Source: a virus. Taken from it: a stretch of 43,238 nt of DNA. The notes below the pieces were generated by a model. That model saw nothing but the letters and a program-made list of their open reading frames with translations. It did not search any database and was not told where the DNA came from. Location: positions 1 through 43,238 of IMG/VR virus record IMGVR_UViG_3300010373_000075; one strand, given 5' to 3'. The translations under genes were made by a program, and so were the position numbers. Below are positions 19,449 to 39,093 of the stretch, piece by piece (position 1 is the stretch's first letter; every line of letters begins with the position of its first letter).

Positions 19449-20876
19449 ATGCCTAGTGTATCAGAAAAGCAGCATCGCGCAATGGAAGCTGCGGCGCACG
19501 GACACAGCACGCTCGGCATTCCCGAAGAGGTGGGTAAAGAGTTTGTAGGGGCTGATGATTCAGCCGACCAACCCCAAAGCCAGACGACTGAAGTTATTGA
19601 AACTATTGAAACAGAGCTTGATGTAGCTAAGGCCATAAGAGAGGGCCAGCTTGCAAGCCCCCAGTTATACGAGAATATTTATTTATTTGATGTGCGGGTA
19701 ACGGGTACAGGTACAAGCTACCGCAAGGCCCACAATGAATACGTTTATCGACCGCCAGAGCACTTTTTAACGAAAGATTTTATAGAACGATGCAATGGAT
19801 TGCCTCTTATTTTCGAGCATCCCAGCTCACTTCTCAATACCGAAGAATATAGAAATAGAGCCATAGGTACGGTCATTTTGCCGTACATCAAAGGCGATGA
19901 GATTTGGGGCATAGCAAAGGTTTTCGATGCTGACGCCGCAAAACTCATGATGACAACTCATGCTTCAACCAGTCCCGCAGTGATGTTTAGAGACGCGGAA
20001 TCTACAGAAACAATCCAAATAGACGGCAAAACAGTTTTGATCGAGGGCAAGCCTTCTCTGCTCGACCACCTCGCCATTTGCGAAGTGGGCGTGTGGGACA
20101 AGGGGAGTGAGCCAAATGGAGTTAATAATAACAGGGAAAATAGTATGGAAAATGAACAAGGAATGGAACAAGCGCCAGCTTGGTTTGATTCATATACAAA
20201 ACGCATGGATGCACGCATGGACGCTTTAGAATCTAAAGCCAGCGAACGTATGGACGCTGACGAAAAGGAAAAAGAAGCCGAAGAAAAAGAGCGTAAAGAT
20301 AGCGAAGAAGCCAAGGAAAAAGAGGCTAAAGAAGCTGCTGAACGCAAAGATTCTGAGGAAGAAGACAAAAAAGAAAAAGAGCGCTGTGATTCCGCTGCTC
20401 GTGAAGCCGCTATGCAAGCCAAGATCGATTCGATGGAAGCGAAACTGGCAGCCGTTACCAAGCCTCATTCCGACCAAGATAAAAACGAAATTTGCAGCGC
20501 TCAGATGAGAGCTGATGGCACTATGCAAATGTTCGGTAAAAAGGCCCCTCTACCCTTCTTTGGCGAAAGCCCAAGAGAGTATCGCACAAGAATTGCCAAC
20601 GAGCTTAAACAGCATTCCGCTGATTTTAAAGCAATCAAGCTTGATTCAATGGATGAAGTCACTTTTAAGGTCATCGAAGACAAGATTTATTCCGATGCTC
20701 AAAGAGTTGCAATAGATTCAGCAGCGGCTACTCCCGACGTGCTTATTCCTGTTGTTACAGAGGATTTTGCAGGTCGCAGAATTACCAAATTCTCAGGTCA
20801 TCCCAATGGCTGGATGCGTCATTTCAAAACATCCGCCAGAACTTGCAAATTAAATATCAATAAGGGAGCAGCCTAA
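19449..20876 (+). CDS. Prohead protease-scaffold fusion (DUF2213-type)
   Basis: 475 aa. Residues 1-36 (MPSVSEKQHRAMEAAAHG ... VGKEFVGAD) are a small motif seen at the start of other phage proteins. Residues 60-225 resemble the DUF2213 prohead protease (GLPLIFEHP, AICEVGVWDKGSEP). Residues 235-345 are a very charged glutamate/lysine coiled coil typical of scaffolds, followed by a C-terminal domain. The protease should cleave scaffold and capsid during maturation. An internal ATG near 20144 (MENEQGMEQ) could make scaffold alone, as in other phages, but its ribosome site is weak. Confidence 0.8.
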   Translation: MPSVSEKQHRAMEAAAHGHSTLGIPEEVGKEFVGADDSADQPQSQTTEVIETIETELDVAKAIREGQLASPQLYENIYLFDVRVTGTGTSYRKAHNEYVYRPPEHFLTKDFIERCNGLPLIFEHPSSLLNTEEYRNRAIGTVILPYIKGDEIWGIAKVFDADAAKLMMTTHASTSPAVMFRDAESTETIQIDGKTVLIEGKPSLLDHLAICEVGVWDKGSEPNGVNNNRENSMENEQGMEQAPAWFDSYTKRMDARMDALESKASERMDADEKEKEAEEKERKDSEEAKEKEAKEAAERKDSEEEDKKEKERCDSAAREAAMQAKIDSMEAKLAAVTKPHSDQDKNEICSAQMRADGTMQMFGKKAPLPFFGESPREYRTRIANELKQHSADFKAIKLDSMDEVTFKVIEDKIYSDAQRVAIDSAAATPDVLIPVVTEDFAGRRITKFSGHPNGWMRHFKTSARTCKLNINKGAA

Positions 20877-21736
20877 TGCAAATCTCAATTAGCCCAAATC
20901 AAACGACCTCCCCTTCAAACTCCTTTCTATTACAAACAACTGGTTTTGTTCAGGGTTCTTACTATGACGACCCCAGCTCTAAAAACTGGCTAGCTGCCGG
21001 ATTTATCGCCTCAAGCGTAACTCAGGCGGTTTGGGGCGGCATGGCGATTACTGAAAATATCCCAGGCATCAGTGCAAACCAAACAGGGGAAAACCTTGTT
21101 CTAGCAAGCGCTCCTGCCAATATCACAGGCTTTACGGTATTTAACCAGGCAAGCAATGGCCTTATCACTCCAGGCAATACCGTTCCTCAGTATGGCTCCG
21201 GCATGAGCATTAGCTATTTCCGCTTAACCTCAAATGCTCGTATTGCTGTTCAATGTAGCAATGCTTTAGCCAACGCCTTAACAGGTGGTGCTACCAACCA
21301 GCAAGTTTCTTGGGACTTTACTGATCAAATTTTAGTGCCTTATACAGCAGGTTATTCAGGAAGTATTAGTGGTGCTGTGTGGGCTTCTACAAACGGCGGA
21401 CAAACCACTTTTACCGTGGGAACTAACCCAACTACTAACGTCCCGGTTGGAGAATATGTCCAAATTTCAGGCGTTGTAAACACAGGCGGCAGCTCAACTG
21501 GCGCGTTCAATGGTAGCTTCTTGGTTGTTAGCACCAGCTCAACAACTATCGTAGTCGCTCAACCTGCTTCAGGTTCACCCGGCACTTATGCAAGTGGCGG
21601 TACTGCTGCCGTTGTCGGAGGCGCTTTGCCTGTCAAGGTGCTTGGCTTTGACACAAACAGCAAGATTGTTAGCTACAACTCAATTACTGGAGCTCTGTCA
21701 TGGACTACAGGCCCCGCCGCCATCATTCAAATCTAA
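20876..21736 (+). CDS. Putative head decoration protein with inserted domain
   Basis: 286 aa, glycine/serine/threonine-rich beta protein between protease/scaffold and capsid genes, the usual place of a capsid-stabilising decoration protein. Its first about 160 and last about 45 residues match the N-terminus of the fibre at 37201-39093 (shared FTVFNQASN, SYFRL.SNAR.AVQC, SWD.T.Q, ALPV.VL, TGPAAIIQ). An 80-residue segment (about 163-245; TFTVGTNPTTNVPVGEYVQI) is absent from the fibre copy and looks like an inserted surface domain. AAGGGAG precedes the ATG. Decoration role is inferred from position. Confidence 0.65.
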   Translation: MQISISPNQTTSPSNSFLLQTTGFVQGSYYDDPSSKNWLAAGFIASSVTQAVWGGMAITENIPGISANQTGENLVLASAPANITGFTVFNQASNGLITPGNTVPQYGSGMSISYFRLTSNARIAVQCSNALANALTGGATNQQVSWDFTDQILVPYTAGYSGSISGAVWASTNGGQTTFTVGTNPTTNVPVGEYVQISGVVNTGGSSTGAFNGSFLVVSTSSTTIVVAQPASGSPGTYASGGTAAVVGGALPVKVLGFDTNSKIVSYNSITGALSWTTGPAAIIQI

Positions 21737-21747
21737 GGAGAAATTAA

Positions 21748-22779
21748 ATGGGATCATTATTTCAGGGTCAGCTTAAGGTTGACCCTTCATTTTCAGAACA
21801 AGGACTTATCGTAACTTACACCCAAAGATCGGGAGCTTTTGCTGCATTACCAGGCGAAGTGCCTAAAGTTAAACTGGGGAGCGAAGATTTAAACGTCTAT
21901 ATCAATGGACTGGATTTAAGGACAGAAGCACAAGCGGCTCAAGCATCTTCTAACTTTTTACCATCAAGTACATTGGTCGGCAGCTACTACTCAACCGCAG
22001 CCTATTTGATTCGTACTCGCGCAAGCTGGGATCATCACGATATTGCAGCAGCAGCTAACTATAACGTGAGCTTGCCTGCCGCTCAAGATTTGGCAAGTCG
22101 CCAAGGTATTTTCCAACAAATGCGAACCATGCTTTTGTATGGACTACAACCTGCCAATGGCGAGGGCTTGGTAAACGCGGTTAATGCGACTCAAGTTACT
22201 CTTCCACCCGATACTTACGGCAACGATACTGTTTTAACCTATGACAACGGCGAAATGGCTCTGTTTATCCTGTCTCAAATCGTGGCAATCAAAGACGCTA
22301 TGTATCAAACAGGCGGCGATATTACTAACAAGATCAAAGTGATTAGCCCACAACGCATCTTTGTACAGTTTGAATACGGCTCTGTCGTTCAAACCACAAG
22401 CTATCAACGCCCTGGCGCTGGTACGGCAACTATTGGCCAAGAAATTAAACAAATCATGCAAGAGCATGGCGACAGTATTGATTGGTACTATGACGACACT
22501 TTAATTGGCAAAGGCGCTGGCGGGTCTGATCTTGTCATCCTAACTATTCCTGAAATCGAAGTGCCAATGATAGAAGGAATTAATACTAACGAGTTCGGCA
22601 AGATTGAGCCATCTATTAAAGACGTTAACACCATGTATACCGACATGGCTGCTCCTATGAAGATTCCTACCCCCGTCCCAGATGGCGGCATCACCGAAGT
22701 TCAAGAGCTTCGTTGCACCTCCGGCTGGAACTTAAGAGGCCAAGGATTGTTCTTGTTAAACATGCCTTATTCCGCCTAA
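21748..22779 (+). CDS. Major capsid protein (DUF2184-type)
   Basis: 343 aa, standard length for this HK97-fold group. Contains an RTRASWDHHDIAAAANYN region, a LASRQGIFQQMRTMLLYGLQ helix, and a C-terminal SGWNLRGQGLFLLN. It follows protease/scaffold and decoration genes and precedes a strong stem-loop, consistent with a highly expressed capsid gene. AGGAG precedes the ATG. Confidence 0.88.
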   Translation: MGSLFQGQLKVDPSFSEQGLIVTYTQRSGAFAALPGEVPKVKLGSEDLNVYINGLDLRTEAQAAQASSNFLPSSTLVGSYYSTAAYLIRTRASWDHHDIAAAANYNVSLPAAQDLASRQGIFQQMRTMLLYGLQPANGEGLVNAVNATQVTLPPDTYGNDTVLTYDNGEMALFILSQIVAIKDAMYQTGGDITNKIKVISPQRIFVQFEYGSVVQTTSYQRPGAGTATIGQEIKQIMQEHGDSIDWYYDDTLIGKGAGGSDLVILTIPEIEVPMIEGINTNEFGKIEPSIKDVNTMYTDMAAPMKIPTPVPDGGITEVQELRCTSGWNLRGQGLFLLNMPYSA

Positions 22780-22783
22780 GAAA

Positions 22784-22820
22784 AAAGCCCGAAATGAAAA
22801 TGTTTCAAGACGGGCTTTAG
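22784..22820 (+). terminator. Stem-loop after the capsid gene
   Basis: AAAGCCCG (22784-22791) pairs with CGGGCTTT (22811-22818); the 19-base loop contains a second pair TGAAA/TTTCA. It starts five bases after the capsid stop. The T-run is short, so it may be a partial terminator or an mRNA-stabilising hairpin that lowers expression of downstream connector genes. Confidence 0.65.
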
Positions 22821-22885
22821 CCGCAACTGATGGGAAAGCAATTAGCGGTCTATTCATCTTAGCAAATAAAAAGGAGTTTTACAGA

Positions 22886-23401
22886 ATGTTAATTATCGCA
22901 AATTGCACAAAGCAGACATTGCACTTTCTCTTTCGCTTACCAGAACGGCGTCACCCATCACGCATAGACATACCAAGCGGACAACAAAGAGATTTAAGAA
23001 GTCTGTTTAATTTAACCGACACTCAAGTTGAGATTGTCAGAAAACAGTGTGAGAGATATGGCTTTAAGCGCGTGGATGAGATTAGCCGCCACATTAAAAA
23101 TTTTAGCGGTTACTTATACAGCGCCAAAGCTGTGAGTTCGGACAATATCGCTGCTGCTCATGAAATGAAAGTGGAATCACAAGAAAAAACATCTGAAAAA
23201 GAAGCATTTAACGCTGTCTTGGGTTATGAGCAATCAACAAGAGACAAGGCTGGAAAAAGGCTTGCTAAAGAGGTTGAAGTTGAAGTTATCGAAGAAAGCG
23301 ACCCACGCGGCCCAAAGAAAGACAAAAAAGTCAAAATGAAGATGTGCGTTTCTGAGCAAGGCAGCAAGGATAAACGAGAGATACCTGTCGATGTCGACTA
23401 A
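22886..23401 (+). CDS. Head-region protein of unknown function
   Basis: 171 aa: a folded N-terminal 90 residues (CTKQTLHFLFRLPERR ... IDIPSGQQRDL) then a very charged lysine/glutamate tail. AAGGAG precedes the ATG. Position between capsid and connector genes suggests a virion or head-completion role, but no family is named. Confidence 0.6.
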   Translation: MLIIANCTKQTLHFLFRLPERRHPSRIDIPSGQQRDLRSLFNLTDTQVEIVRKQCERYGFKRVDEISRHIKNFSGYLYSAKAVSSDNIAAAHEMKVESQEKTSEKEAFNAVLGYEQSTRDKAGKRLAKEVEVEVIEESDPRGPKKDKKVKMKMCVSEQGSKDKREIPVDVD

Positions 23402-23846
23402 TGCCTTACAGCCGAACCTGACAGATTTTACGGCCTTTGTATACGCGCAGGGAGTGCCAGAGGCAGATTTACCCTCTGACTCCCCTTATCTGCCAGCGGC
23501 GCTTGAATATGCTGAAAATGTGGTCATCGACTCGCCGCCGGATATATCGACTGTTCTCTATGTTGATGCGGTTTATAACTTAGGGATGCACAAGCTTTTA
23601 AAGATAGCTCAAGACATTAACCCTTATACATTTTTTACAGATAGCCGCAAGCAATATGGGCTTTTGTCATTCGTGGCAGGGCCGATAGTGACATCAGGCG
23701 ACCAAGGAACAAGCGAGGCATTACTGCCTGCCGAATGGATGAAAGATATGACCTTGCTTGCCAATGACTGTTTAAAGACCCCTTGGGGGCAAAGCTTTTT
23801 AATGTATCAGCAGGATTATGGCCCCACGATTGTCGGAGTGTCTTAA
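23391..23846 (+). CDS. Head-tail connector (DUF4054-like)
   Basis: 151 aa. The helical layout with an AAxxYAENVV helix, LYVDAVYNLGMHKLL and a final WGQSFLMY segment fits adaptor proteins of the gp6/DUF4054 class that sit below the portal. It overlaps the previous gene by 11 bases. Confidence 0.65.
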   Translation: MSTNALQPNLTDFTAFVYAQGVPEADLPSDSPYLPAALEYAENVVIDSPPDISTVLYVDAVYNLGMHKLLKIAQDINPYTFFTDSRKQYGLLSFVAGPIVTSGDQGTSEALLPAEWMKDMTLLANDCLKTPWGQSFLMYQQDYGPTIVGVS

Positions 23847-24281
23847 ATGATTGTGCATCTTGGCGTGGTTGATGTGGCCTATACGGAAGATGACAAGCTA
23901 ACTACGACAGGCAAGGTGGCGGGAATTTTAGAGGCTAATTATGGCGTGATGAGGACTTTTGTTGAGCTTCACGAAGATGAGATTGGCGATGAGCTGGTAA
24001 ATCAGCTTATGGGAATGCTTGAGAGCGCTAAGCAAGGGAAGCTAGATGAAGACATTGCGGAGCGTGTTGCAGACATTCACTTTCCCAAGATTCAGGCCAT
24101 GTTCAGGAATTATTTAGATGCTGGAGAGTGGGAAAAAACAAGCGGTCAACCCACACAGGTGGCTTTGGATGGGGTAAGACACAGCCATAAGCGCCCTTAT
24201 GCCAATGGTAAAGGCCCACGGCCAAGTTTTATTGATACAGGACTATATAGATCAAGTTTTAGGACATGGGTAAGTAAGTAA
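23847..24281 (+). CDS. Neck/tail-completion-like protein
   Basis: 144 aa; the C-terminal GPRPSFIDTGLYRSSFRTWV resembles the TGxxxxS motif of gp10-type minor head-tail proteins. GGAG lies about 8 bases before the ATG. It probably joins head and tail; by order it precedes the terminator-type neck protein. Confidence 0.6.
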   Translation: MIVHLGVVDVAYTEDDKLTTTGKVAGILEANYGVMRTFVELHEDEIGDELVNQLMGMLESAKQGKLDEDIAERVADIHFPKIQAMFRNYLDAGEWEKTSGQPTQVALDGVRHSHKRPYANGKGPRPSFIDTGLYRSSFRTWVSK

Positions 24282-25234
24282 TGGGTATAGCGCAGGAAGC
24301 GATCAATGCACCAGGACAGTTAGCAGCAACTCTAGCGGCTGGTGTAGATACGCTTTCAAGCAATCAGACCATCACTTTCCAGCCCTACACTAAATACGTT
24401 TTTACCGAAGATGGTTTTGTATTTTGGGTGAAGTCCGGCGCAACTTTCGATGTCAAAGGCTCTTTGCATCAGATAGCAGACCAGAACCAGAACGAAGACG
24501 AGACTATAGCGATAAATCGGATGATTTTTACATCCGAAGAAGAGGTAACAAAGTTTAATGAGCCTGATTCCCAAACTCTTTATGTCGGAGCCTGGGATAT
24601 AGACGGCGTAACTTTAAAGGTCGTTTTTAATACGAGCGGCCAGACATACAAACAAGCGGGACTTTGGCATTACAACGGGGACGCGGTTTACCCGGCCCTT
24701 GAAGCGCAATTTGTTAATAGCGTTGATGATTTACCAGTAGGGCCGATCGTAAGTAACAGCATAGGAATCTGGCTATCTTTAGATGATTTTGCGCCAGTCT
24801 ACCCCTCCTACCTTGTGCCAAGCAACATAAGGCCGCCCTATATTGCCGTACACATAGGCCCCGAAGATACCACGCCATTGCAGCAGTTCGCATCCTATGA
24901 CTGGCCCGGCACACAAACAGGCCCTAATTGGTATGAACTTAATAGCTCTCAACTGATGCAAGACCAAGTGAAGTTGATTTTATATGGGTTTACTGCCCAG
25001 CAAGTAGGCCAATACATGTCTTATCTGCAAGATCATTCACGCGATACCGATGAATTTGGCTTTTGCAACTCCCCGGCTATCACTGACGGCAAGCGCAAAC
25101 AGACCGAGATCGGCGCAATAGCAGAACAAAAAATTATAAAAATTTTAGCGTCTTACTACCAAAGAGTTTCGGATGCAGTCGCAAGACGCCTGATCTTAGA
25201 GACGACAGTTAATTATGAATTTCAAGGAAGTTAA
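24281..25234 (+). CDS. Neck terminator-like tail protein
   Basis: 317 aa. The last 130 residues (QVKLILYGFTAQQVGQYMSY ... EIGAIAEQKIIKILASYYQR ... LILETTVNYEFQG) match a neck/tail-terminator-like family in contractile phages. The N-terminal half is beta-rich (FTEDGFVFWVKSGATFDVKG) and may be an added domain. Family name uncertain. One-base overlap with the preceding gene. Confidence 0.6.
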   Translation: MGIAQEAINAPGQLAATLAAGVDTLSSNQTITFQPYTKYVFTEDGFVFWVKSGATFDVKGSLHQIADQNQNEDETIAINRMIFTSEEEVTKFNEPDSQTLYVGAWDIDGVTLKVVFNTSGQTYKQAGLWHYNGDAVYPALEAQFVNSVDDLPVGPIVSNSIGIWLSLDDFAPVYPSYLVPSNIRPPYIAVHIGPEDTTPLQQFASYDWPGTQTGPNWYELNSSQLMQDQVKLILYGFTAQQVGQYMSYLQDHSRDTDEFGFCNSPAITDGKRKQTEIGAIAEQKIIKILASYYQRVSDAVARRLILETTVNYEFQGS

Positions 25235-25255
25235 AAACACACAAGGAGCTTTAAA

Positions 25256-25546
25256 ATGCCACAAAATCTTAATCCCTCAGCTTATGCACAATCAACCCTT
25301 TTAAATGTTACTGCTTCAACATTAGTAAAATCCGGACTAGGACGAGTTTTTTCGGTAAACGTCACCACGGCAGGAGCCGCCGGCGGTATTTATGATGTAG
25401 CGACCACAGGAGCCGCTGGGGCGGCAAATTTAATCGCCACTATCCCCGCCACGGTAGGAACTTACAACTATTTTGGTCTGCCTTTTGAAAATGGCCTGGT
25501 TTATGTCCCCGGCTCAGCTCAAGTCGTTTCAATTTCCTATAGCTAA
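25256..25546 (+). CDS. Small structural protein
   Basis: 96 aa, alanine/glycine/threonine-rich beta protein (VFSVNVTTAGAAGGIYDVAT) lacking charged residues, typical of virion proteins. AAGGAG upstream. Directly before the sheath gene; may be a minor capsid or tail component. Confidence 0.6.
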   Translation: MPQNLNPSAYAQSTLLNVTASTLVKSGLGRVFSVNVTTAGAAGGIYDVATTGAAGAANLIATIPATVGTYNYFGLPFENGLVYVPGSAQVVSISYS

Positions 25547-25556
25547 GGGGCTAAAA

Positions 25557-27122
25557 ATGCCTAATATTACTACCGAGATTGTCAATCTCACGGCAGTGGT
25601 CACTGTTGCCCCTACTCCCTCCCAATTGCAACAAAGCGGTGCTTTTGTTTCAGTTGGAGGAACTACCTTAGCCCCTAACGAATATCAATTTTGTCCTGAT
25701 TTGGCGACAGTCCAAAGCCTCTTAAGCGGCGCAGGAAACCACGCCGAGCTTAGCAATATGGCTACAACCTTTTTTGCTCAAGGCAGCGGGGTGGGCGTTT
25801 TCCTGCTTGAACTCGGAGCGGTATCGGGTGTTGATGCTCAGATAATAGCCCTTGAAACTTGGATTACTGATAATTCCGGCGTGTTTTATTCCTATTTAGT
25901 TCCTGCTAACTGGGATAGTTCGGATGATCAGGTAGGCAGCATAACTATCACAAGCGCGGGAAGCGGTTATACTGCGGCTCCTGCCGTTACTTTTTCAGCC
26001 CCTGGTTCAGGAACAACGGCCACCGGAACGACCATTATTAGAAACGGTGCGGTCGTAGGGGTGACGATCACCAATGCAGGGTCAGGCTATACGGCAGTTC
26101 CCACAGCGACTTTTGCAGCCCCATCGGGAACTACTGCAACGGCCACTTCAAGCATTACTGGCGGATTAGTAACGAGCTATACCATAACAAACCCAGGGGC
26201 AGGCTATACAGCAATTCCTTCTATAACTTTTTCAGACCCTCCTAGTGGAGTGACCGCGACAGGAACAGCGGTCATTACTGGTGGAGTGCTAACGGCAATC
26301 ACCATAACCAATGCAGGGAGCGGCTATGTTACAGCACCAACAATTACTATTGCAGCTCCTACTGGTACAACGGCCACAGGCACGGTTAATTTAACCTCAG
26401 CCTTAAATAATCTAGCCTCTAATTATGCCAGCCCCACAGGAAAGACTTACTTTTTTGTGACGGCTTCTACATCAGACCTGGCCGATTATGCCGGAGTTAA
26501 AAGCATTTTTGCTTTAGTGCCAAGTCCTCTTGCTCCATCAAGCGAATTTACAGCAGCAGCGCCCTTCTATCAATGGCTTGTGAATAATCCTCAAGCCTCT
26601 AACAGATTGGCCCAGATGGGATATCGCTATATGGTTGGCGTTACTGCTTGGCTTTTGGCTCAAAACCAAATCACTTTAGACAATATTTTATCAGCTTACG
26701 GCAATATTATTTTAACTGGAGCTGAGGGCGGCATATCCAATAAATGCTTGTTCAAAGGCAATTTTATGGATGGCACGCAAATGTCTTGGTGGTATGGCAT
26801 AGATTGGATACAGATTCAGATCAAGCAAGCTCTGGCAGCCGCTATCATCAATGGCTCAAACAGCAACCCACCGCTTCTATACGATCAAAACGGTATCAAT
26901 ACTCTGCATAAAATTGCTCAAAGAATAGCTGACACTGCGGTGTCCTTTGGCTGCGCTTTAAGCGCTCAAGTCTTTGCCATCCCCTTTGGTCAATATAGCC
27001 GTCAAAATCCAGATGATTATGCAGCGGGTATTTATAACGGACTGACCGCAACAGTTGTCGGTGCTAATGGATTCCAACAAATCACATTCGCGCTAGATGC
27101 CCTTCAATTTGTTCCTTCTTAA
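25557..27122 (+). CDS. Contractile tail sheath (DUF3383-type) with repeat insertion
   Basis: 521 aa from ATG 25557 (AAGGGG upstream; the frame is open further 5' but overlaps the preceding gene). The C-terminal half carries sheath-like segments (FMDGTQMSWWYGIDWIQIQI, SAQVFAIPFGQYS). Residues about 128-279 are a four-copy repeat of about 40 residues, each with GSGYT-AxP-xTFxxP, inserted between the N-terminal sheath domain and the rest. The sheath contracts to drive the tube through the envelope. The insertion should lie on the outer surface. Confidence 0.85.
   Translation: MPNITTEIVNLTAVVTVAPTPSQLQQSGAFVSVGGTTLAPNEYQFCPDLATVQSLLSGAGNHAELSNMATTFFAQGSGVGVFLLELGAVSGVDAQIIALETWITDNSGVFYSYLVPANWDSSDDQVGSITITSAGSGYTAAPAVTFSAPGSGTTATGTTIIRNGAVVGVTITNAGSGYTAVPTATFAAPSGTTATATSSITGGLVTSYTITNPGAGYTAIPSITFSDPPSGVTATGTAVITGGVLTAITITNAGSGYVTAPTITIAAPTGTTATGTVNLTSALNNLASNYASPTGKTYFFVTASTSDLADYAGVKSIFALVPSPLAPSSEFTAAAPFYQWLVNNPQASNRLAQMGYRYMVGVTAWLLAQNQITLDNILSAYGNIILTGAEGGISNKCLFKGNFMDGTQMSWWYGIDWIQIQIKQALAAAIINGSNSNPPLLYDQNGINTLHKIAQRIADTAVSFGCALSAQVFAIPFGQYSRQNPDDYAAGIYNGLTATVVGANGFQQITFALDALQFVPS
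25938..26392 (+). repeat. Four tandem 120-base repeats inside the sheath gene
   Basis: Coding repeats whose protein units begin GSGYTAAP, GSGYTAVP, GAGYTAIP and GSGYVTAP at spacing of about 40 codons, each followed by TATGT/ITGG-type strands. Nucleotide identity between units is visible but imperfect, suggesting old duplication. Confidence 0.8.
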
Positions 27123-27132
27123 GAGGTAAAAA

Positions 27133-27573
27133 ATGCCTAATCCACTTATAGCCCAGGGTACATTAAACCGACTATTAGGGTCGGTTACTATTCCTGGATT
27201 TCCAAACCTTAACATTACCTCTTCGTACATGGGAAAGAACTTTATTACCATTACCTTTGACGGCGATTTTGATAATTTAATCCCCACAGGTACAGGCACG
27301 GTAACATCCCCTGAGCCGTATGTTACAGCCACGATAAATATCGATATTTTAAGGACTCAGCCCTTAGCTGCCGCTTGGCTCTTGCAGTCTCAAACGCTGT
27401 GCGACATTGGCGGATTTTCGGTATTCCCCGATACCGCGGCCTTTCCTTCGCTTAACTTCGTGAATGGCATTATTAAACACATGGACCCCGGTCCCTATAG
27501 CGGAACCGACCCATCAACGCCTTTAATTTTGCAAGGAACATTCAACATTAACGATAACTTATGGACTCTCTAA
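27133..27573 (+). CDS. Tail tube protein (DUF3277-type)
   Basis: 146 aa, normal for tube proteins of this group. Beta-rich with GTLNRLLGSVTIPGFPNLN and a late GTFNINDNLWTL. It immediately follows the sheath with AGAGG upstream, the canonical sheath-tube pair; it polymerises into the inner tube. Confidence 0.8.
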   Translation: MPNPLIAQGTLNRLLGSVTIPGFPNLNITSSYMGKNFITITFDGDFDNLIPTGTGTVTSPEPYVTATINIDILRTQPLAAAWLLQSQTLCDIGGFSVFPDTAAFPSLNFVNGIIKHMDPGPYSGTDPSTPLILQGTFNINDNLWTL

Positions 27574-27577
27574 TTCT

Positions 27578-30300: not shown

Positions 30301-30302
30301 CC

Positions 30303-30596: not shown

Positions 30597-31579
30597 CGAT
30601 CAAGGGAGCGGGACGCTATTATGATTTATCGGTCTACAGTATCCCAACAGATACTGCCCCAGCTCGCCTTATAAAAAGATGGACATCCTATCCTGATGGA
30701 GTTTATGACCCAGGTGCTTTAAACATCCAGTTTGATATGTCTATAGTGCCTTATGACACTCCTACAGGCGGCCAGACTATTGTTTTAGAGGGCGTATCAC
30801 TTGCCGACTTGCAGCAAGCCACCGAATACACAAACTATCAGATAGTTCTAAAAGCAGGTATGGCCCAGGGCCTACCCTTAGCCAATCCCAAACAAGCAGG
30901 GACAATTGCACAGGGCTTTATTTTCCAGTCATACCCCAACTGGGAAGGCACTGAAATGAGCCTCTCTTTTGTGATCTATCCCAGTCCCTATACTATCACT
31001 GAGCCTGGCAATATCACTTTAAACTGGGCGGCAGGCACGCCCTTGTCAGGCGCTTTAGAACAAAGCCTTAAAACTGCTTTCCCCAATACCCCTATCAGCA
31101 TCAACATAAGCTCAAACCTTGTTTCAAGCAACAACGAACAAGGCTATTTTGCCTCTTTAAATGATCTTGCTTCGGTTTTATCCGGCATCACTCAAAGCCT
31201 GGGCCATCAGGTCTATATCACCTTCCAAAACGGCTCAATTATTGTTTTTGATGATACTTACGCGCCGCCCCCTCTTGAATTATCTTTCACTGATTTAGTC
31301 GGTCAGCCTGCCTGGGTAGATGTCAATATTATGCAGGTTAAGCTTGTGATGAGAGCAGATATTCAAGTCGGCGCTCTTATCAAAATGCCTAAAGGCCTAA
31401 AACAAGGCCCAGGCTCAGTGATCATTTCGGGCAACTCTTTGCCCTCAAGCCTAAAGTACAAGTCGGCTTTTCAGGGAATATTTCAGGTTATAGAGCTGCG
31501 CCAGATCGGAAATTCAAGGGCGGCTGATGGCACTCAATGGGTAAGCATTATCAATTGCGCGGTGACTGGAAGTGACTAA
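30593..31579 (+). CDS. Baseplate hub protein
   Basis: 328 aa. N-terminal beta segments and a SISINISSNLVSSNNEQGYF ... LASVLSGITQSLGHQVYIT middle fit the gp27/Mu gp44-type hub that joins tube to spike. It lies directly before the central spike gene with ATGA coupling from the previous gene. Confidence 0.65.
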   Translation: MTIKGAGRYYDLSVYSIPTDTAPARLIKRWTSYPDGVYDPGALNIQFDMSIVPYDTPTGGQTIVLEGVSLADLQQATEYTNYQIVLKAGMAQGLPLANPKQAGTIAQGFIFQSYPNWEGTEMSLSFVIYPSPYTITEPGNITLNWAAGTPLSGALEQSLKTAFPNTPISINISSNLVSSNNEQGYFASLNDLASVLSGITQSLGHQVYITFQNGSIIVFDDTYAPPPLELSFTDLVGQPAWVDVNIMQVKLVMRADIQVGALIKMPKGLKQGPGSVIISGNSLPSSLKYKSAFQGIFQVIELRQIGNSRAADGTQWVSIINCAVTGSD

Positions 31580-32228
31580 TAACTACGCAAAACTTAACTT
31601 TCAAAAAAATTCTAACCTTGCGGCTATCAATCGCACAAAAGAAGCTATACTTACGTTAGGAAAATCTTTGCCATGCAGAGTTATTGCAGTAGATGGGGCC
31701 TTGGTTGAGGTCGCTTTTGAAGTTGATTCAAGTCCCTGGACATTACCTACTGTCATCATTCCTAAAACCGAAAGCGAATGGGCCAAAGTCCCTACTCAAG
31801 TCGGTGATATTGGCATTACCATTCCCGCAGATACCTATATAGGCAATATTACAGGCCAGGGTGCGGGATTACCCAGTATACAAGTCAAACCATGCAATTT
31901 GTCAGCTCTGGTATTTCAGCCAGTCAGCAATAAAAATTCACCCTCACCTTATCCTAATTCGTATTTTGTGCAAGGGCCAGAAGGCTTTGTTGCTCAGACT
32001 CAAGATGGCACGGTGCAGTTTATTTTAAATGCTTCGGGGGTAAATGTGGTTATAGGCGGCATCACCGTGTTTTCAATAGGAAGTACAGGGGCTACTGCAA
32101 ATGGCAATTTGCTAGTCAATGGAATGATAACAGGTACGACAGATGTTATAGGCAATGGAATTTCACTTAGCACACACACACACAGCGGCGTTACCACAGG
32201 AGGAGGCGATACAGGGCCACCCACATGA
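31572..32228 (+). CDS. Baseplate central spike (gp138/gpV-like)
   Basis: 218 aa. An N-terminal OB-like domain (CRVIAVDGALVEVAFEVDSS) is followed by a beta-helix (VNVVIGGITVFSIGSTGATA). The tip has SLSTHTHSGVTTGGG, whose HxH motif coordinates iron at the point of many phage spikes. It pierces the outer membrane upon contraction. Overlaps the hub gene by 8 bases. Confidence 0.85.
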   Translation: MTNNYAKLNFQKNSNLAAINRTKEAILTLGKSLPCRVIAVDGALVEVAFEVDSSPWTLPTVIIPKTESEWAKVPTQVGDIGITIPADTYIGNITGQGAGLPSIQVKPCNLSALVFQPVSNKNSPSPYPNSYFVQGPEGFVAQTQDGTVQFILNASGVNVVIGGITVFSIGSTGATANGNLLVNGMITGTTDVIGNGISLSTHTHSGVTTGGGDTGPPT

Positions 32229-32572
32229 GAGTTTATGGAACGATAGAGAACGAAGAAGGCCAAAGGATTTGGCAGGTGGTCACAACGGATGCCAACGGCT
32301 TTAACGATAATGTTTATTTAACAGCGCTTTGCCAGGACTTGCTTTTGCAGCTTGGAGAATCGCCCTTTTATGCTAATTTCGGCATCCCGGCGACTCAATC
32401 CGTACAAACCCAAGTGCCGCCCGATTATTGGGTGATGCAGACTCAGCAGGAATATGCCCAATATTTCGCGTCATTAATTATTAGTAAAGTATCTCGCGCC
32501 GCTAATCCTACCTATAAGGTAGTCGTGATCACGCATCAAGGAGCTATATTAACACAGGAAGTTGCAATATGA
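32225..32572 (+). CDS. Baseplate wedge, gp25-like
   Basis: 115 aa; LYANFG-type middle (LLLQLGESPFYANFGIPA) and position between spike and baseplate J fit the gp25/gpW wedge component. ATGA overlaps on both sides. It helps trigger sheath attachment. Confidence 0.7.
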   Translation: MRVYGTIENEEGQRIWQVVTTDANGFNDNVYLTALCQDLLLQLGESPFYANFGIPATQSVQTQVPPDYWVMQTQQEYAQYFASLIISKVSRAANPTYKVVVITHQGAILTQEVAI

Positions 32573-33771
32573 GTAGTACCGATATTCCTTTAGTCATGGG
32601 GCCAGAAGGCCCTGTGCCAACCTCACCCGCAGTTATTTTAGAAACCTTAATTGCAGCCGTTGCAGCAGACGTGCCGGATTTTACCGCAAATTTACCCGGT
32701 ACATTGATTGAGGATATATCCTCAACTGATGTAGCAGCTATCGCGCAAATTGACCAATACAGGGTAGATTCGGTTAATGATATAACACCCTATGGCGCTA
32801 ATGCGGATGTTTTGAATCAGCTTGGCGTGATGTTCGGTATCGAACAAGGCAAGCCCACCAATACCAGCGTTTTTGTGATCATAAGCGGGAACGTAGGCTA
32901 TATCATTCAGCCGGGCTTTATTGTTTCGGACGGCACACATCAATATGTGGTTCAGGATGGTGGCACTATTGGAGGGGGCGGCTCTAGCGAATCGCTTTTT
33001 GCGGTAGCTAACCAATCCGGCTCTTGGTCTGTTCCTGTTGGTACTGTTACAACGATTATAACAGGCATCCCCACTCCTTATGAGCTTACCTGCACAAACG
33101 CAGTGGCAGGCATACCAGGAGCACCCGCCGAAAGCGTGCAAAGCTATCGCTCAAGAATTTTACAGGCGAGCATTGTTGCCGGACAAGGAACGCCCGCTTA
33201 TTTAAGGACGCTTATCGAAGCCGTCCCTGGCGTTGTGAGTCGTCTTGTATCCATCCTGCAAGTATCTGCAGGATGGGAGATCATCGTTGGCGGAGGAGAC
33301 TCTTACCAGGTAGCCGGAGCCATTTATAAAGGAATTTTAGATTTAAGCTCAATTAAAAGCTCTGATACTTCCCCACGCAATATCACCGTAACCATCATAG
33401 ACCCCCCTAATAACTATAATATTATCTATGTTAATCCGCCCAATCAGGTCGTAACGGTTGATGCCACCTGGAACACGGATTTAATCAATTTCACGGCGGG
33501 TTTGCAGGTCGATGTTTTGGCCGCTCCCGCCATTCAAAATTATATCAACGGAATCACTGTAGGTCAGCCCATTAATCTTTTAAGCATGACAGCCGCTTTC
33601 CAGCAAGCCGTTGCCAGTATTCTGCCAACAGAAAACTTAAGCACATTAGATTTCACAGTAACTATTAATGGTTCCCCTGTTAGCCCTGAAGCCGGGACGA
33701 GCATTATTTTATCTGATCCTGAATCCTATTTTAGTTGCGCGGCTGATGCCGTTACGGTGGTGCAGGGATGA
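32569..33771 (+). CDS. Baseplate J-like protein
   Basis: 400 aa. GTLIEDISSTDVAAIAQID, GANADVLNQLGVMFGIEQG, GFIVSDGTHQYVVQDGG and AESVQSYRSRILQA are the standard order of baseplate J/gp47/gp6-type wedge proteins. It forms the baseplate wedge backbone that opens on host contact. Confidence 0.88.
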   Translation: MSSTDIPLVMGPEGPVPTSPAVILETLIAAVAADVPDFTANLPGTLIEDISSTDVAAIAQIDQYRVDSVNDITPYGANADVLNQLGVMFGIEQGKPTNTSVFVIISGNVGYIIQPGFIVSDGTHQYVVQDGGTIGGGGSSESLFAVANQSGSWSVPVGTVTTIITGIPTPYELTCTNAVAGIPGAPAESVQSYRSRILQASIVAGQGTPAYLRTLIEAVPGVVSRLVSILQVSAGWEIIVGGGDSYQVAGAIYKGILDLSSIKSSDTSPRNITVTIIDPPNNYNIIYVNPPNQVVTVDATWNTDLINFTAGLQVDVLAAPAIQNYINGITVGQPINLLSMTAAFQQAVASILPTENLSTLDFTVTINGSPVSPEAGTSIILSDPESYFSCAADAVTVVQG

Positions 33772-34496
33772 TTGATGAATCATTTAGTGTAGTTCCGCTT
33801 AAGGATATAGCTCCCTCCTATCTGTATGTTCAGTACAAATGGAGCAAAGATTTACAGGCTTTTGTTGATGTCTTTAATAAAATCACGCAGGGCTATTTAG
33901 ATTGGTTTAACAATACCCCCCTCGCGGTATATACCAATTCAACAATAAGCGGCTCGCTTCTTGACTGGATAGGGCTAGGAATTTATGGCTACAGAAGACC
34001 CGCTTTTATCTATCCACCCATGAAAGGGGAGTTACTAGGAAGCTACGGCTGTCAGACTTATGGCGAAGTACCTTACGGTGCTAACTACTACCAGGGCGCT
34101 CAGAGCGGCAGCGCAGTATATGTCGATGACGATATCTACAAAAGAGCGCTAACCTGGCATGTCTACAAAGGCGATGGCGTTCAAATGACTGTCCCTTGGC
34201 TGAAATTTAGAATAGCTCGATTTTTGTACGGGCCCTATGGCAAAGACCTCAACGGCATTGATGAGCTATATAACGTCAGCATCACATTTTCGCATGACTA
34301 TATATGGGTGGGTTCATACGGAACAACCTCGTATGGAACCATATCTTATGGTGATAATGAAAAATTATTTAACCAAGATTTTCTGATCACAATTACCTTA
34401 AGCGATAACCGAGAATCTCGCGCATTCAAGCTTTTATTTGAAAACGGCTTTTTAGCCAAACCCTTCCAACTTAAATTCAAGGTGATATTAACATGA
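33768..34496 (+). CDS. Tail wedge protein (DUF2612/gpI-like)
   Basis: 242 aa downstream of baseplate J, the site of the second wedge/tail-fibre-attachment protein. DWFNNTPLAVYTNSTISGSL and LDWIGLGIYGYRRP match the family pattern. Two similar tyrosine-glycine blocks occur (GSYGCQTYGEVPYGAN near 86 and GSYGTTSYGTISYGDN near 184), a possible internal duplication. Confidence 0.7.
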   Translation: MIDESFSVVPLKDIAPSYLYVQYKWSKDLQAFVDVFNKITQGYLDWFNNTPLAVYTNSTISGSLLDWIGLGIYGYRRPAFIYPPMKGELLGSYGCQTYGEVPYGANYYQGAQSGSAVYVDDDIYKRALTWHVYKGDGVQMTVPWLKFRIARFLYGPYGKDLNGIDELYNVSITFSHDYIWVGSYGTTSYGTISYGDNEKLFNQDFLITITLSDNRESRAFKLLFENGFLAKPFQLKFKVILT

Positions 34497-35389
34497 GTTA
34501 TACTTTAGCGAATTTCATAAGAACCTCTGTTGCAGCCACTTTCGGTAGCAGCTCAACTACTTTACAGGTCGCAAGCTCAACTGGCCTGCCCTCTCCTACT
34601 ATAGCAGCCCCTATGCCTGTCATACTGACCGATGCGGCCACAGGCCTTGTCAAAGAAATTGTCTATGCAACATCGATTTCTGGCTCTAACTTAACAGTGG
34701 TTCGAGCCAGAGAAGGCACGGCAGCTCAAAACTGGAATATTGGGGATTTAGTCAATTGCGACCCAACAGCAGGAACCGTTGCTACCGTAGGAAGCTCACC
34801 CTTTTTTGGTCTAGATGCTGGCGCGGCTGATACTTATGCGGTCTCAATCCCTCAAGTGACAGCCTATACTACAGGCTTATTCTTTGGAATTAAGATTGCC
34901 AATACCAACCTAACCACGACTCCTACGGTCAATGTTAGTGCGCTGGGGGCTGAAAATATTGTGCGCGAAGATGGCACAGCAGTAGCGTTAGGCGATTTGC
35001 CAATAGGGGGAATAGCATGGCTCACTTATGACGGCACTAATATGCAATTGATTAACCCAAGAACGGCAGTTGCAAATAGATCGGTATTTAATGCAGGCCC
35101 TGGTGTTACAAATACAGGGTATATAGAATTACCAGGCGGATTTATTATAAATTGGGGGCAGGTTGATTTTACTTTGAACGGCACGCAAGTATCAACTTTC
35201 GCTAAAGCATTTCCTAATAAAAGCCTTTCAATTGTTTGGACTGGCACCAAAAATTCCGCAGTCTTTTTTGTATCTAATGTTGAATTAGATGGCACGCAAC
35301 CATCAGCCACATCGCTTACTCAATGCAGTGCAGTTTATTCGGGTGGGGCGGTTTCCGATAATGCAAATTATATTTGCATAGGTTATTAA
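34493..35389 (+). CDS. Tail fibre protein 1
   Basis: 298 aa. N-terminal attachment-like region (AATFGSSSTTLQVASSTGLP ... VVRAREGTAAQNWNIGDLV), a beta shaft, and a C-terminal receptor-binding-like domain (YIELPGGFIINWGQVDF, TFAKAFPNKSLSIVW) of the gp53-like fibre tip class. ATGA-coupled to the wedge protein. It ends overlapping the convergent exported-protein gene by 4 bases. Confidence 0.8.
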   Translation: MSYTLANFIRTSVAATFGSSSTTLQVASSTGLPSPTIAAPMPVILTDAATGLVKEIVYATSISGSNLTVVRAREGTAAQNWNIGDLVNCDPTAGTVATVGSSPFFGLDAGAADTYAVSIPQVTAYTTGLFFGIKIANTNLTTTPTVNVSALGAENIVREDGTAVALGDLPIGGIAWLTYDGTNMQLINPRTAVANRSVFNAGPGVTNTGYIELPGGFIINWGQVDFTLNGTQVSTFAKAFPNKSLSIVWTGTKNSAVFFVSNVELDGTQPSATSLTQCSAVYSGGAVSDNANYICIGY

Positions 35390-36147
35390 ATCGGACTGCT
35401 CGTGCATGTCATTAAAACTGCACTCGAACAATTCTTGCGCGAACTTGGTATATCACTAGTTGCCGCAGTAAAAAAAGCTGTATTTAAAGCATTGGGCATA
35501 TTATCCGCGAGTTTAAATGATGTAACCATTCCTTCATGAACTTCTAAAACATCCCCCTGCGCCAATGCTCCTTGTGCTGGCGTATAAAAAGCAGATTGAA
35601 TGCCGAATAAAATCGGGTCTGTTTGGTGTCCCAGGCATGGGGTGCGACTTAATTCACACGCCACCTCCGAGTTAGTAAGATTATAAGATAATAATTTAGG
35701 CGTACCATCTAAAATAGATGTGAAGGTATCATAATGGGGTGGCTGTGGAAGGTTGTAGACAACAGGCTCATCGCAAGTCAAGGCGACCGTTGTTTGGCAC
35801 TTATTATCTTGAGGTTCACCATTATAAATTACAAGAGGCTGCATACCTGTAGAGGAGTTGAATGAATAGGTTTCGCCCATTGCTAGATTGATTATTGAAG
35901 GCTGCTGCCCAAAAATCATAGTAAGCGGGATGGTAGCGGGAGCATCGGGGCAATAATTTCTATTTAATGTACAGATACTATTTCCAGGCTGGACATTCAG
36001 AGTATATGATATAATGCTTCCCGGGCTGCCAGCACACATAAAAGTGCTTTCACCAATACATAGGGCATTTTGATTTTGAGCGTCTGTTAGCGTTGCCCCG
36101 CCCAAAACCGCCAAACCCGAAACAACCGCATTTCTGACTGAATACAT
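35386..36147 (-). CDS. Exported cysteine-paired protein
   Basis: 253 aa. The start MYSVRNAVVSGLAVLGGATLTDAQ looks like a signal peptide. The mature part contains ten cysteines as five CxnC pairs with spacing 7, 6, 7, 6, 7 (CIGESTFMC, CTLNRNYC, CQTTVALTC, CELSRTPC, CSSAVLMTC). These mark two and a half tandem beta repeats probably held by local disulphides, which implies an oxidising compartment. GGAG 7 bases before ATG 36147. Second gene of a two-gene minus-strand cassette. Unrecognised; possible lysogenic-conversion or receptor-masking factor. Confidence 0.65.
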   Translation of the reverse strand: MYSVRNAVVSGLAVLGGATLTDAQNQNALCIGESTFMCAGSPGSIISYTLNVQPGNSICTLNRNYCPDAPATIPLTMIFGQQPSIINLAMGETYSFNSSTGMQPLVIYNGEPQDNKCQTTVALTCDEPVVYNLPQPPHYDTFTSILDGTPKLLSYNLTNSEVACELSRTPCLGHQTDPILFGIQSAFYTPAQGALAQGDVLEVHEGMVTSFKLADNMPNALNTAFFTAATSDIPSSRKNCSSAVLMTCTSSPI

Positions 36148-36148
36148 G

Positions 36149-36640
36149 TTATCTCTCCAAGTTTACTGAGGGTTGCTCTGTCATTCTAAATACACCGAAA
36201 ACAAAACTATTGTTATTAAAAGGCATTCTTTCGCAATCGCCTTCAGGCAGATAATCACCATAACCATAGGCAACTCTATTTACAGGAATATCTGCGCCGA
36301 TGACGCTTAAATTTTGAGCCAAAGTAGTAAATTCACTGGCTGTTACTTGATAGGCAGTACAAGCAAAATAAGTATCCTTAATAGTTGATGTTTGCATAAA
36401 ATCAGGACATCCCTGGGGAATAAAATACGATTCATTTTGAAACGCAGGAAAATAAATTCTGGCTTCTGCTACAGCAGTTTGTGGGGTATCGCTTGTAAAG
36501 TTTACTCCAGCAAGCGGGTTAATTGGCTTTCCTATTATTTCTGAAATTGGAATGTTAGATTCTCTCATTACAGTACAAGCTTGAGCAACACCTGCTGAAA
36601 TTGCTAAAAGGCTTGTAAAGCCCTTCCATAAATTCCACAT
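36149..36640 (-). CDS. Exported protein with four cysteines
   Basis: 163 aa from ATG 36640 (GAGG 7 bases upstream). The start MWNLWKGFTSLLAISAGVAQ forms a signal peptide with a likely AQA cleavage site just before the first of four cysteines. The mature part is beta-rich with GYGDYLPEGDCERM near the end. It stops one base before the next gene. A TTGACA promoter lies upstream. No family recognised. Confidence 0.6.
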   Translation of the reverse strand: MWNLWKGFTSLLAISAGVAQACTVMRESNIPISEIIGKPINPLAGVNFTSDTPQTAVAEARIYFPAFQNESYFIPQGCPDFMQTSTIKDTYFACTAYQVTASEFTTLAQNLSVIGADIPVNRVAYGYGDYLPEGDCERMPFNNNSFVFGVFRMTEQPSVNLER

Positions 36641-36692
36641 CGAATATCCTCTCATAGATTATCCCCTGCTCTGATTTATATAACTTTAGGTC

Positions 36693-36721
36693 ACGATATA
36701 CCTGTAAGTGGTGGATGTCAA
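36693..36721 (-). promoter_or_regulatory. Promoter of the exported-protein cassette
   Basis: On the minus strand a consensus TTGACA (36716-36721) lies 17 bases from TATCGT (36693-36698). It faces the gene at 36640. An independent sigma-70-like promoter for genes opposed to the late operon suggests expression from the prophage. Confidence 0.6.
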
Positions 36722-36750
36722 ATTTTAGGAGGCGGGGGCTTAACTCAGGA

Positions 36751-36779
36751 TTGCTTAGAAATAAGCCTTCCCTTATTAT
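36751..36779 (+). promoter_or_regulatory. Promoter of the 61-residue gene
   Basis: TTGCTT (36751-36756) and TATTAT (36774-36779) with a 17-base spacer face the gene at 36815. It diverges from the exported-protein promoter only 30 bases away, so both could answer to one regulator. Confidence 0.55.
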
Positions 36780-36812
36780 GCTAACTGCGAAATTAATCTA
36801 TAATAAGGGAAG
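36767..36812. repeat. 13-base inverted repeat spanning promoter and ribosome site
   Basis: CTTCCCTTATTAT (36767-36779) and ATAATAAGGGAAG (36800-36812) are perfect inverted copies separated by 20 bases. The left arm contains the -10 box and the right arm the AAGGG ribosome site of the 36815 gene. It could be an operator pair. In read-through transcripts it would also form a hairpin hiding the ribosome site. Confidence 0.65.
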
Positions 36813-36814
36813 CT

Positions 36815-37000
36815 ATGAACAAGAAGGATAGTAGTAATTCTAATGGCAAAAGTCAAACTAAAGAGCTTTCAGTTAATAAATCGGAATGTCAGGCTCAAGG
36901 CCAGAAAGATTACACTTATAAAATAAGCTGGCTTATGAAGCCATTTATTAACTTTCTGTCTTTTGACTGGTGGACTCCTCGCCTGGAAAATCAAGCCTGA
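36815..37000 (+). CDS. Small hypothetical protein with own promoter
   Basis: 61 aa. The first half is polar and unstructured (serine, asparagine, lysine). The second half is aromatic (SWLMKPFINFLSFDWWTPRL) and could lie on a membrane. AAGGG 5 bases before ATG. It has its own promoter, so it may be a lysogen-expressed gene. Function unknown. Confidence 0.5.
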   Translation: MNKKDSSNSNGKSQTKELSVNKSECQAQGQKDYTYKISWLMKPFINFLSFDWWTPRLENQA

Positions 37001-37010
37001 TTTCATCAGG
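36996..37010 (+). terminator. Small hairpin at the end of the 61-residue gene
   Basis: CCTGAT (36996-37001) pairs with ATCAGG (37005-37010) around TTC, overlapping the stop codon, with a CTTTTTATAA run about 9 bases later. Weak intrinsic terminator at best. Confidence 0.4.
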
Positions 37011-37200
37011 ATTTAAGCACTTTTTATAAATTCCCCTGCAAATTTCCCAAAATGTACTAAACTCCTAGACATCGCTATAAATTCAATGCGTTTTAAGTCT
37101 TCTTAAGCCCTAGCCTGGGCCTTTAGCAGATTCAGCTTTTCGCAAAAAAATCCAATTCAATTTAAATCACTTTAACTTGCCTCTTACAAGGAGTTTCGGC

Positions 37201-39093
37201 ATGTCTGGGAATATTCCATTTAATCCAAATAATACTATAGCGCCAGCCAATTCAATTGTTTTAACGACAGAAGGTTATATCCAAGGAGTCTTTTTAGATG
37301 ACCCCACTGCAAATAATCAGCTCCTTGCGGGATTGGTTTCTCAAAGCGAAGCGCTACCAATTTGGGGGGCGGTAGCTTTAACTGAAACTGTGCCTGTGGC
37401 AGATGGTCAGCAAGCAGGCAATACTTTAAGGCGGGCAACAGGAAATAGTGATTTAACAGCTTTTAGCGTATTCAATCAAGCCAGTAATATGCTTTTAAGC
37501 CCTGGAAGTACCGTTGCTCAAGCGGTATCAGGAAATACTACCAGTTATTTTAGGCTAGGCTCTAATGCAAGGGTTGCTGTGCAGTGTGATGAAGGTCTAG
37601 TCAATTCCCTGGATGGGAACCCTACAACTCAGCTTGTTTCGTGGGATTATACCAATCAGAAGCTTATTACTTATAATGCTGGAGTTGGGGCGCTCCCGGT
37701 GCAAGTGTTGCAAATAAGCACAAACAGCCTGGTCGTAGCGTATGATTCTGGGCATAAAACATTGCGCTATACCAATGGCCCTATAGCCATTATTCAACTC
37801 ATGAATAACAGTGCCGCCGTAGATGGCAATGGAACTGTAAAAAATGTTTCGGCAGGAAATTTAGCGCCCTTATTTACCTCATCAGTCCCCAATCCAACCA
37901 CTACGCCAGCTATAAGCTTTACCGCTATAGCTCAAGCGGCCAATAAAGTTTATGCGGGGCCAGCAACAGGCGCAAATGCCGCCCCCACATTTAGATCATT
38001 GGTTTTAGCAGACACACCCAATTCATCGACTGGCGGCATTAGCAATTTAATAAGTCGGGATACAAGCGGGAATTCATTTATAAACAACCTTTTAAATGGT
38101 ATAACAAGCACTGTTTCAGCGGGAGCCACTACAACCCTAACCATTGCATCAACGCAATATCAAATTTTGACGGGTACGTTTGATCAAACGTACGTATTGC
38201 CAGATGCAACAACATTATTTAATAACTGGAAATTTAGATTTATTAATAAATCTACCCGCTCTCTTGTCGTTCGGGATTCCGGTAGTAATATTCTTTATAC
38301 GATGCCCACTGGTGGCTGCATTGAATGTATTTTACTTGATAATTCTACTATTGATGGGTCATGGAAAATCAATGTTTATGGCAATGATTCCGCTAAATGG
38401 GGCGATGATCACCTAGACCTCGGAAATACTTTTTTTTATGGGCAAAAAATATTAGAAGTCATTATTAATTCTAATACGTATACCCCTACGGTGGATGATG
38501 TCGGAAAGCGCCTGGTTTTTACATTAGAAGCCCCAGTAACGATCACTTTGGATGGAACTGACTTTACAGGCGGCGAAAACTGGTTCTTTGATTGCGCAAC
38601 TGGTACGACTATCATCATAACAGCCGCCGGCGGTTTTAATATAACTGGTAATACCAGCATGAATTCTCAGGATTATTATCAAGTTATATATCAGCCTACA
38701 GAATTTAAAGTTTTAGCGCTTGAAGATACTACAATCTCTGAAGTTCAATTGGCAACTATGGATAATGTTGATGTCAATGTAGGTACTAAAACCAATATTT
38801 ATACTGTTCCCACAGGATTTATAGCCATTATAACTAGGGCCTGTATAAGAAATGCTTCCATTTCTTTAACGACAGCTCAATTAAGTGGTGGTTTTGATAG
38901 TGGGGCTTCTAATGTGACCGCCAATACTACGCTATCTACTTTAACCACTGCTAACAATTATTTATTTATGAATATTCTACCGGGGGCGGTAGCTGGAGCT
39001 GCCGCAGATATTTTCGGAGTAATAGCAAATACACCCCAGGGGGCGGCCGCCACTGTATCGGTTGATGTTTTTGGTTATTTGATGCCAATCTAA
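37201..39093 (+). CDS. Tail fibre protein 2 with decoration-like N-terminal domain
   Basis: 630 aa from ATG 37201 (AAGGAG upstream; ORF open earlier without a ribosome site). Residues 1-205 match the head decoration protein at 20876. Residues 210-275 show the common fibre pattern (SAGNLAPLFTSSVPNPTT ... YAGPATGANAAPTFRSL). The remainder is a beta shaft and a C-terminal beta sandwich (GTKTNIYTVPTGFIAIITRA ... DVFGYLMPI). It is distant from fibre 1 and lies beyond the exported cassette. A fibre or appendage role is likely; head attachment is possible given the shared domain. Confidence 0.7.
   Translation: MSGNIPFNPNNTIAPANSIVLTTEGYIQGVFLDDPTANNQLLAGLVSQSEALPIWGAVALTETVPVADGQQAGNTLRRATGNSDLTAFSVFNQASNMLLSPGSTVAQAVSGNTTSYFRLGSNARVAVQCDEGLVNSLDGNPTTQLVSWDYTNQKLITYNAGVGALPVQVLQISTNSLVVAYDSGHKTLRYTNGPIAIIQLMNNSAAVDGNGTVKNVSAGNLAPLFTSSVPNPTTTPAISFTAIAQAANKVYAGPATGANAAPTFRSLVLADTPNSSTGGISNLISRDTSGNSFINNLLNGITSTVSAGATTTLTIASTQYQILTGTFDQTYVLPDATTLFNNWKFRFINKSTRSLVVRDSGSNILYTMPTGGCIECILLDNSTIDGSWKINVYGNDSAKWGDDHLDLGNTFFYGQKILEVIINSNTYTPTVDDVGKRLVFTLEAPVTITLDGTDFTGGENWFFDCATGTTIIITAAGGFNITGNTSMNSQDYYQVIYQPTEFKVLALEDTTISEVQLATMDNVDVNVGTKTNIYTVPTGFIAIITRACIRNASISLTTAQLSGGFDSGASNVTANTTLSTLTTANNYLFMNILPGAVAGAAADIFGVIANTPQGAAATVSVDVFGYLMPI

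Follow-up and report, generated by a model that had tools for sequence, protein, structure and literature searches.

A phage genome represented by 43,238 nucleotides of viral DNA (IMG/VR record IMGVR_UViG_3300010373_000075; the whole of this stretch is referred to as the window) encodes the same domain twice, once as a stand-alone protein next to the major capsid protein (MCP) gene and once as the N-terminal base of a 630-aa fibre. The fibre is probably a head fibre that is anchored to the capsid by a cement paralogue. The original prediction had proposed such a fibre, held through the decoration lattice of the head; the fusion of the domain to a fibre shaft is borne out, and a location on the head is what we infer, as the reading that best fits synteny, predicted fold and gene content.

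Two copies of one domain

Homology between the stand-alone protein (286 aa, positions 20876-21736 on the plus strand, as are all features below unless stated otherwise) and the fibre (37201-39093) extends over fibre residues 4-200. BLASTP aligns the pair in two segments, cement residues 3-159 with fibre residues 5-161 (48% identity over 157 aa, 157 bits, E 3e-48) and cement residues 249-286 with fibre residues 163-200 (the final 38 residues, at 55% identity). A further domain of some 88 aa, at residues 160-249 of the cement (positions 21353-21622), has no counterpart in the fibre copy. Each protein independently matches the phrog_6268 profile, the cement with an E-value of 2.5e-50 and the fibre base with 2.7e-41, and a search of the whole record retrieved these two copies only. 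The shared blocks that had first been pointed out are present: FTVFNQASN of the cement corresponds to FSVFNQASN of the fibre, and SYFRL.SNAR.AVQC, GALPV.VL and GP.AIIQ occur as well; the proposed homology with fibre residues 1-205 holds, with its extent refined to residues 4-200. Structure prediction leads to the same result, since the models of base and cement have their helices and strands in the same order rather than unrelated folds. A terminal repeat was sought at the window ends, and none was found.

The stand-alone protein as a probable cement of the head shell

The stand-alone gene is preceded by that of a DUF2213 head-maturation protease/scaffold (19449-20876; Pfam DUF2213, 1.4e-6; phrog_530 head maturation protease, 5e-8) and followed by that of the MCP (21748-22779; phrog_6671, 6e-126; phrog_264 major head protein, 8e-8). 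This protease-cement-MCP order is repeated in relatives from viral contigs, phage records and prophages, and across the roughly 145 records with phrog_6268 the family is almost always represented by one stand-alone protein adjoining the capsid gene. A DUF2213 protease or capsid gene is adjacent in 79 of 80 loci examined (the best 80 of 279 matches), the exception being a fused copy in the phage fragment L112, discussed below. Every other virus record that was scanned whole holds exactly one copy, including about 40 records of at least 40 kb and five phage genomes deposited as complete, so that the search for phages with only one copy has revealed the single stand-alone form beside the capsid gene as the near-universal state among relatives. 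One bacterial genome carries two copies, both stand-alone. Family members also occur, in stand-alone form, in 81 of 5426 complete Escherichia coli genomes, including a prophage of the laboratory strain W that could serve as a model, while a search of a 369-genome class sample returned only the genome already known. Two stand-alone cements stand out for other reasons: one (L185), adjoining the MCP gene, has an unusually long open frame of 361 aa, and the record of another (L068, Escherichia phage Rac-SA53) is annotated with genes for a heat-labile enterotoxin IIa and a pertussis-like toxin.

The same slot between DUF2213 protease and MCP is occupied by gp24 of phage E217 and its homologues in other phages, and the MCP of the window reaches phrog_264, the family of the E217 MCP. 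E217 gp24, a protein of about 200 aa, has been proven by cryo-EM to form beta-tulip trimers at the threefold and quasi-threefold axes of the capsid (PMC10329688). It is also the top match, a weak one, of the cement model among solved structures in the PDB. Further matches of this model are the TW1 capsid-stabilising protein, a capsid chain of T1, the SHP of phage 21 and phi29 prohead chains as long as gp8.5. Foldseek E-values of the decoration-protein matches range from 0.04 to 3, and none is below 0.001 for either the cement or the fibre base; the fold assignment therefore rests on the pattern of matches. Unlike its position, the sequence of the protein has no detectable homology to E217 gp24: the PF22758 HMM (Phage_cement; E217 gp24/Pam3 gp6) matched neither the window proteins nor 32 family members, and hhalign of phrog_6268 against E217 gp24/PF22758 gave a probability of 0.2 and no sequence relationship. 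Likewise, sequence searches of phrog_6268 against solved structures in the PDB, gp8.5 included, yielded no relevant match, and Pfam yielded nothing relevant for the cement, the fibre and 32 family members. A literature search for virion proteomics of phrog_6268 members found none. Because no Foldseek E-value falls below 0.001 and no profile joins the families, identification as a cement is based on structure and synteny; on these grounds, the stand-alone protein is probably a cement of the head shell.

It could be argued that the phrog_6268 protein is instead some other head-assembly factor and not a surface cement, in which case the fibre would have borrowed a domain of unrelated role. The missing sequence match to known decoration families is in keeping with this idea, as is the annotation of the family, which gives the function as unknown or, in some phage records, as that of an endosialidase. 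Nevertheless, an assembly factor seems quite improbable for a protein that shares its slot with E217 gp24, adjoins the MCP in nearly every relative and, in both of its copies, yields models with decoration proteins prominent among the fold matches.

The additional domain of the cement is of interest for the orientation of the protein on the shell. Inserts that other cements carry at this site are 38-62% identical to it, those in L080-L083 and L093 54-63%. The core of the window cement groups with insert-free cements in the phylogenetic tree, and the closeness of its insert to other inserts in spite of this suggests transfer of the domain between cements. Many natural cements bear a domain of about 88 aa at this loop, and in the models the last beta hairpin has the loop and the C-terminus at one and the same end. 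As such a domain is tolerated there, this end, from which a C-terminal extension would leave the protein, probably faces away from the shell.

Architecture of the fused fibre

The start of the fibre gene at 37201 is preceded immediately by AGGAG as a Shine-Dalgarno sequence and matches the start of the homologous gene in L112. Residues 1-200 (37201-37800) constitute the cement-paralogue base, 48% identical to the cement, and block means of pLDDT in its model are mostly 78-96 over residues 21-200. The best Foldseek match of the base in the PDB is the TW1 capsid-stabilising protein (probability 0.96), followed by the gephyrin E-domain, which is homologous to bacterial MoeA. MoeA is the only non-viral beta-tulip named in a review of decoration proteins, which also describes the N-terminal arm as the capsid-binding part of beta-tulip decoration proteins (PMC7602432). 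The proline of the NP motif in this arm is retained in the fused bases. Of 29 alignment columns that are conserved in at least 90% of cements, 24 and 22 are kept in the two fused bases; the five to seven altered positions include G87, replaced by A, and W190, replaced by Y, in both, and their loss may have weakened the binding of the fused base to the capsid.

The base is followed by a neck or linker (residues 201-312, 37801-38136) that begins with MNNSA..GNG as in L112 and by a shaft, both modelled with low confidence. A beta-rich module (residues 313-388, 38137-38364) is common to MW202753.1, a phage protein annotated as an endosialidase chaperone (44.9% identity, E 1e-5), and a second module at about residues 412-510 (38434-38730) is partly common to the L112 shaft (BLASTP, 26% identity over 123 aa, E 5e-4). 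The C-terminal tip (residues 511-630, 38731-39090) differs from that of L112 and is presumed to bind a receptor. Homologue searches with the tip were empty, and searches with the shaft only and with the L112 fibre found no relatives beyond the one module and a weak linker motif in lectin-type phage proteins. Matches of the full fibre in BFVD mostly cover the low-confidence shaft and were left out of the evidence for this reason.

A second fused fibre and the direction of the fusion

The fused form is found in two of the roughly 145 records, the window and L112, a 17.9 kb fragment of a sister phage. No third case was found among the best 80 of 279 matches, ranked by likeness to the fused base, and a search of genome contigs with the fibre base alone gave no matches. 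The L112 fibre (504 aa) is encoded at the same locus and has a different shaft: the two bases are 57% identical and the shafts barely align, as would be expected if the anchor is constrained and the tip is diversifying. On its 5' side lie a tail-fibre gene and reverse-strand genes, some of them for apparently exported proteins, and on its 3' side a holin, an endolysin and an integrase, in a region that is 81% identical to the window at the DNA level. An assembly artefact or chance chimera was considered and is ruled out, since L112 stems from another sample and repeats the architecture at the same locus.

In both phages a conserved non-coding block (37020-37076 in the window, 84% identical to L112 8832-8889) precedes the fused fibre by 150-170 bases. 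Its core, AAAATGTACTAAACTCCTA, is exact in both and has no other exact occurrence in the window or in L112. This block bears on whether the fused gene could be a decaying or transient duplication without a role in the virion, a reading for which the rarity of the fused form (two of about 145 records) might be cited. It is very hard to reconcile with an open frame in both phages, good ribosome-binding sites, an identical locus with a conserved upstream block, and bases that are 57% identical and keep common conserved positions.

The two fused bases make up one clade of the tree (support 98/99), which lies, together with the window cement, in a clade of 33 rows (100/98). The nesting of the fused pair within stand-alone cements argues for an ancestral cement and a single fusion event. 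The original prediction had left the direction open, either a head-surface domain fused to a shaft or an adhesion domain recruited to the capsid; the widespread stand-alone form, with the fused copies nested within it, supports the former, from cement to fibre. The simplest history would be one fusion followed by diversification of the tip.

Head or tail

Both phages keep a fibre of the ordinary baseplate type besides the fused one. In the window this canonical tail fibre (34493-35389; phrog_8469/1396 tail fibre; PF21882) consists of an adaptor (residues 1-100) and a gp53-like C-terminus, and its adaptor also follows the wedge gene in QDWS, PdC23, YenM and L112. The adaptor N-terminus is confined to the 34493 gene and its homologues; the fused fibre has the cement domain in its place.

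The fused gene is placed away from the head genes, and in both phages it follows the genes for baseplate and tail fibre and precedes those for lysis. This location would suit a tail, neck or baseplate fibre, in which the cement domain is reused only as a stable trimeric base that now binds a tail protein. The likeness of the shaft to a protein of endosialidase-chaperone type and the loss of some cement-conserved positions from the fused copies point the same way. However, both phages already possess a canonical tail fibre with its conserved baseplate adaptor, the fused protein has no adaptor-like sequence, and its base retains most of the cement-conserved positions as well as the N-terminal arm. 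A tail-bound fibre is thus unlikely, and a fibre on the head remains the preferred reading.

If the fibre is on the head, the phages of the window and of L112 would descend from one that gained a second copy of its own kind of cement gene (phrog_6268), and this copy would have become joined via its C-terminus to modules of tail-fibre type. With the cement fold and N-terminal arm apparently kept in its N-terminal domain, the fused base should trimerise and occupy some of the cement sites, presumably the threefold or quasi-threefold positions of an HK97-type shell, either alone or mixed with plain cement. A threefold base could run on into a trimeric shaft with no change of symmetry, and the variable adhesion tip would point away from the head. 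Binding via the baseplate would be left to the ordinary tail fibre, the head fibre providing a second and probably reversible contact with the host or another surface. A more tentative extension is a mixed cement lattice, in which the fibre-bearing paralogue shares threefold sites, and perhaps even trimers, with the plain cement. This arrangement would amount to a natural decoration-display system, in which the relative expression of the two genes determines how many head fibres there are, and with a tip free to diversify without touching capsid assembly.

Relation to known head fibres and decoration proteins

The original prediction knew of no standard description of such a pairing, a statement that does not stand in view of the described head fibre of phi29. 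gp8.5 has an N-terminal beta-tulip base at quasi-threefold capsid sites and a C-terminal fibre, is trimeric, and acts as a dispensable aid to adhesion (PMC7602432, PMC6542822); the kind of fibre is therefore known. The fused protein resembles gp8.5 in combining a decoration-type N-terminal base, its fold by prediction, with a C-terminal fibre. Unlike phi29, where gp8.5 is the sole beta-tulip capsid protein named in these sources, the window encodes a separate plain cement that coexists with the fibre. The gp8.5 fibre is alpha-helical and gp8.5 binds the C-terminal Ig domain of the MCP, whereas the shaft here shows beta-rich modules; moreover, a long distance separates the fused gene from the head genes, and its product has no sequence match to gp8.5.

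Other systems share single features. No fused copy of E217 gp24 is described in the accessible portions of PMC10329688. Among decoration proteins of the TW1/lambda gpD type, which provide the best fold match of the fused base, lambda gpD takes C-terminal fusions and is used for display according to the available text of PMC7602432 and PMC12656833; these display fusions are man-made, and the same text describes no natural fusion to a fibre. Head fibres are also found on the tailed phages 7-7-1 and phiCrAss001, where they are thought to make a second contact with the host or a surface (PMC12796354, PMC10172136). Unlike the base described here, the phiCrAss001 fibres insert short segments of their N-termini into hexon pockets as anchors and those of 7-7-1 emanate from pentamers, and neither involves a paralogue of a decoration protein.

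What is new is the coexisting plain cement, the independent locus in the tail/lysis region, the different shaft and the visible ancestry from cement to fibre. Together these features suggest an extra adhesion fibre on the head besides the usual tail fibres. They outline an evolutionary route to a head fibre, via a second cement copy and its C-terminal fusion to tail-fibre modules while the plain cement is kept, for which phi29 would represent an end state without the intermediate. The prediction is that one phage can carry two adhesion systems, one on the head and an independent one on the tail, with implications for the way in which phages find their hosts.

Neighbouring genes

The interval from the tail fibre to the fused fibre contains two minus-strand genes (35386-36655) for apparently exported, cysteine-containing proteins, with similar genes at this place in L112. 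A minus-strand promoter-like site, TTGACA-17-TATCGT, at 36721-36693 is the same in L112 (8121-8093); owing to this identity, the exported-protein genes may be lysogenic-conversion genes. Elsewhere in the window, the tail sheath (25473-27122) contains an insertion of about 160 aa made up of GSGYT..P-type repeats, which match repeats in other phage structural proteins.
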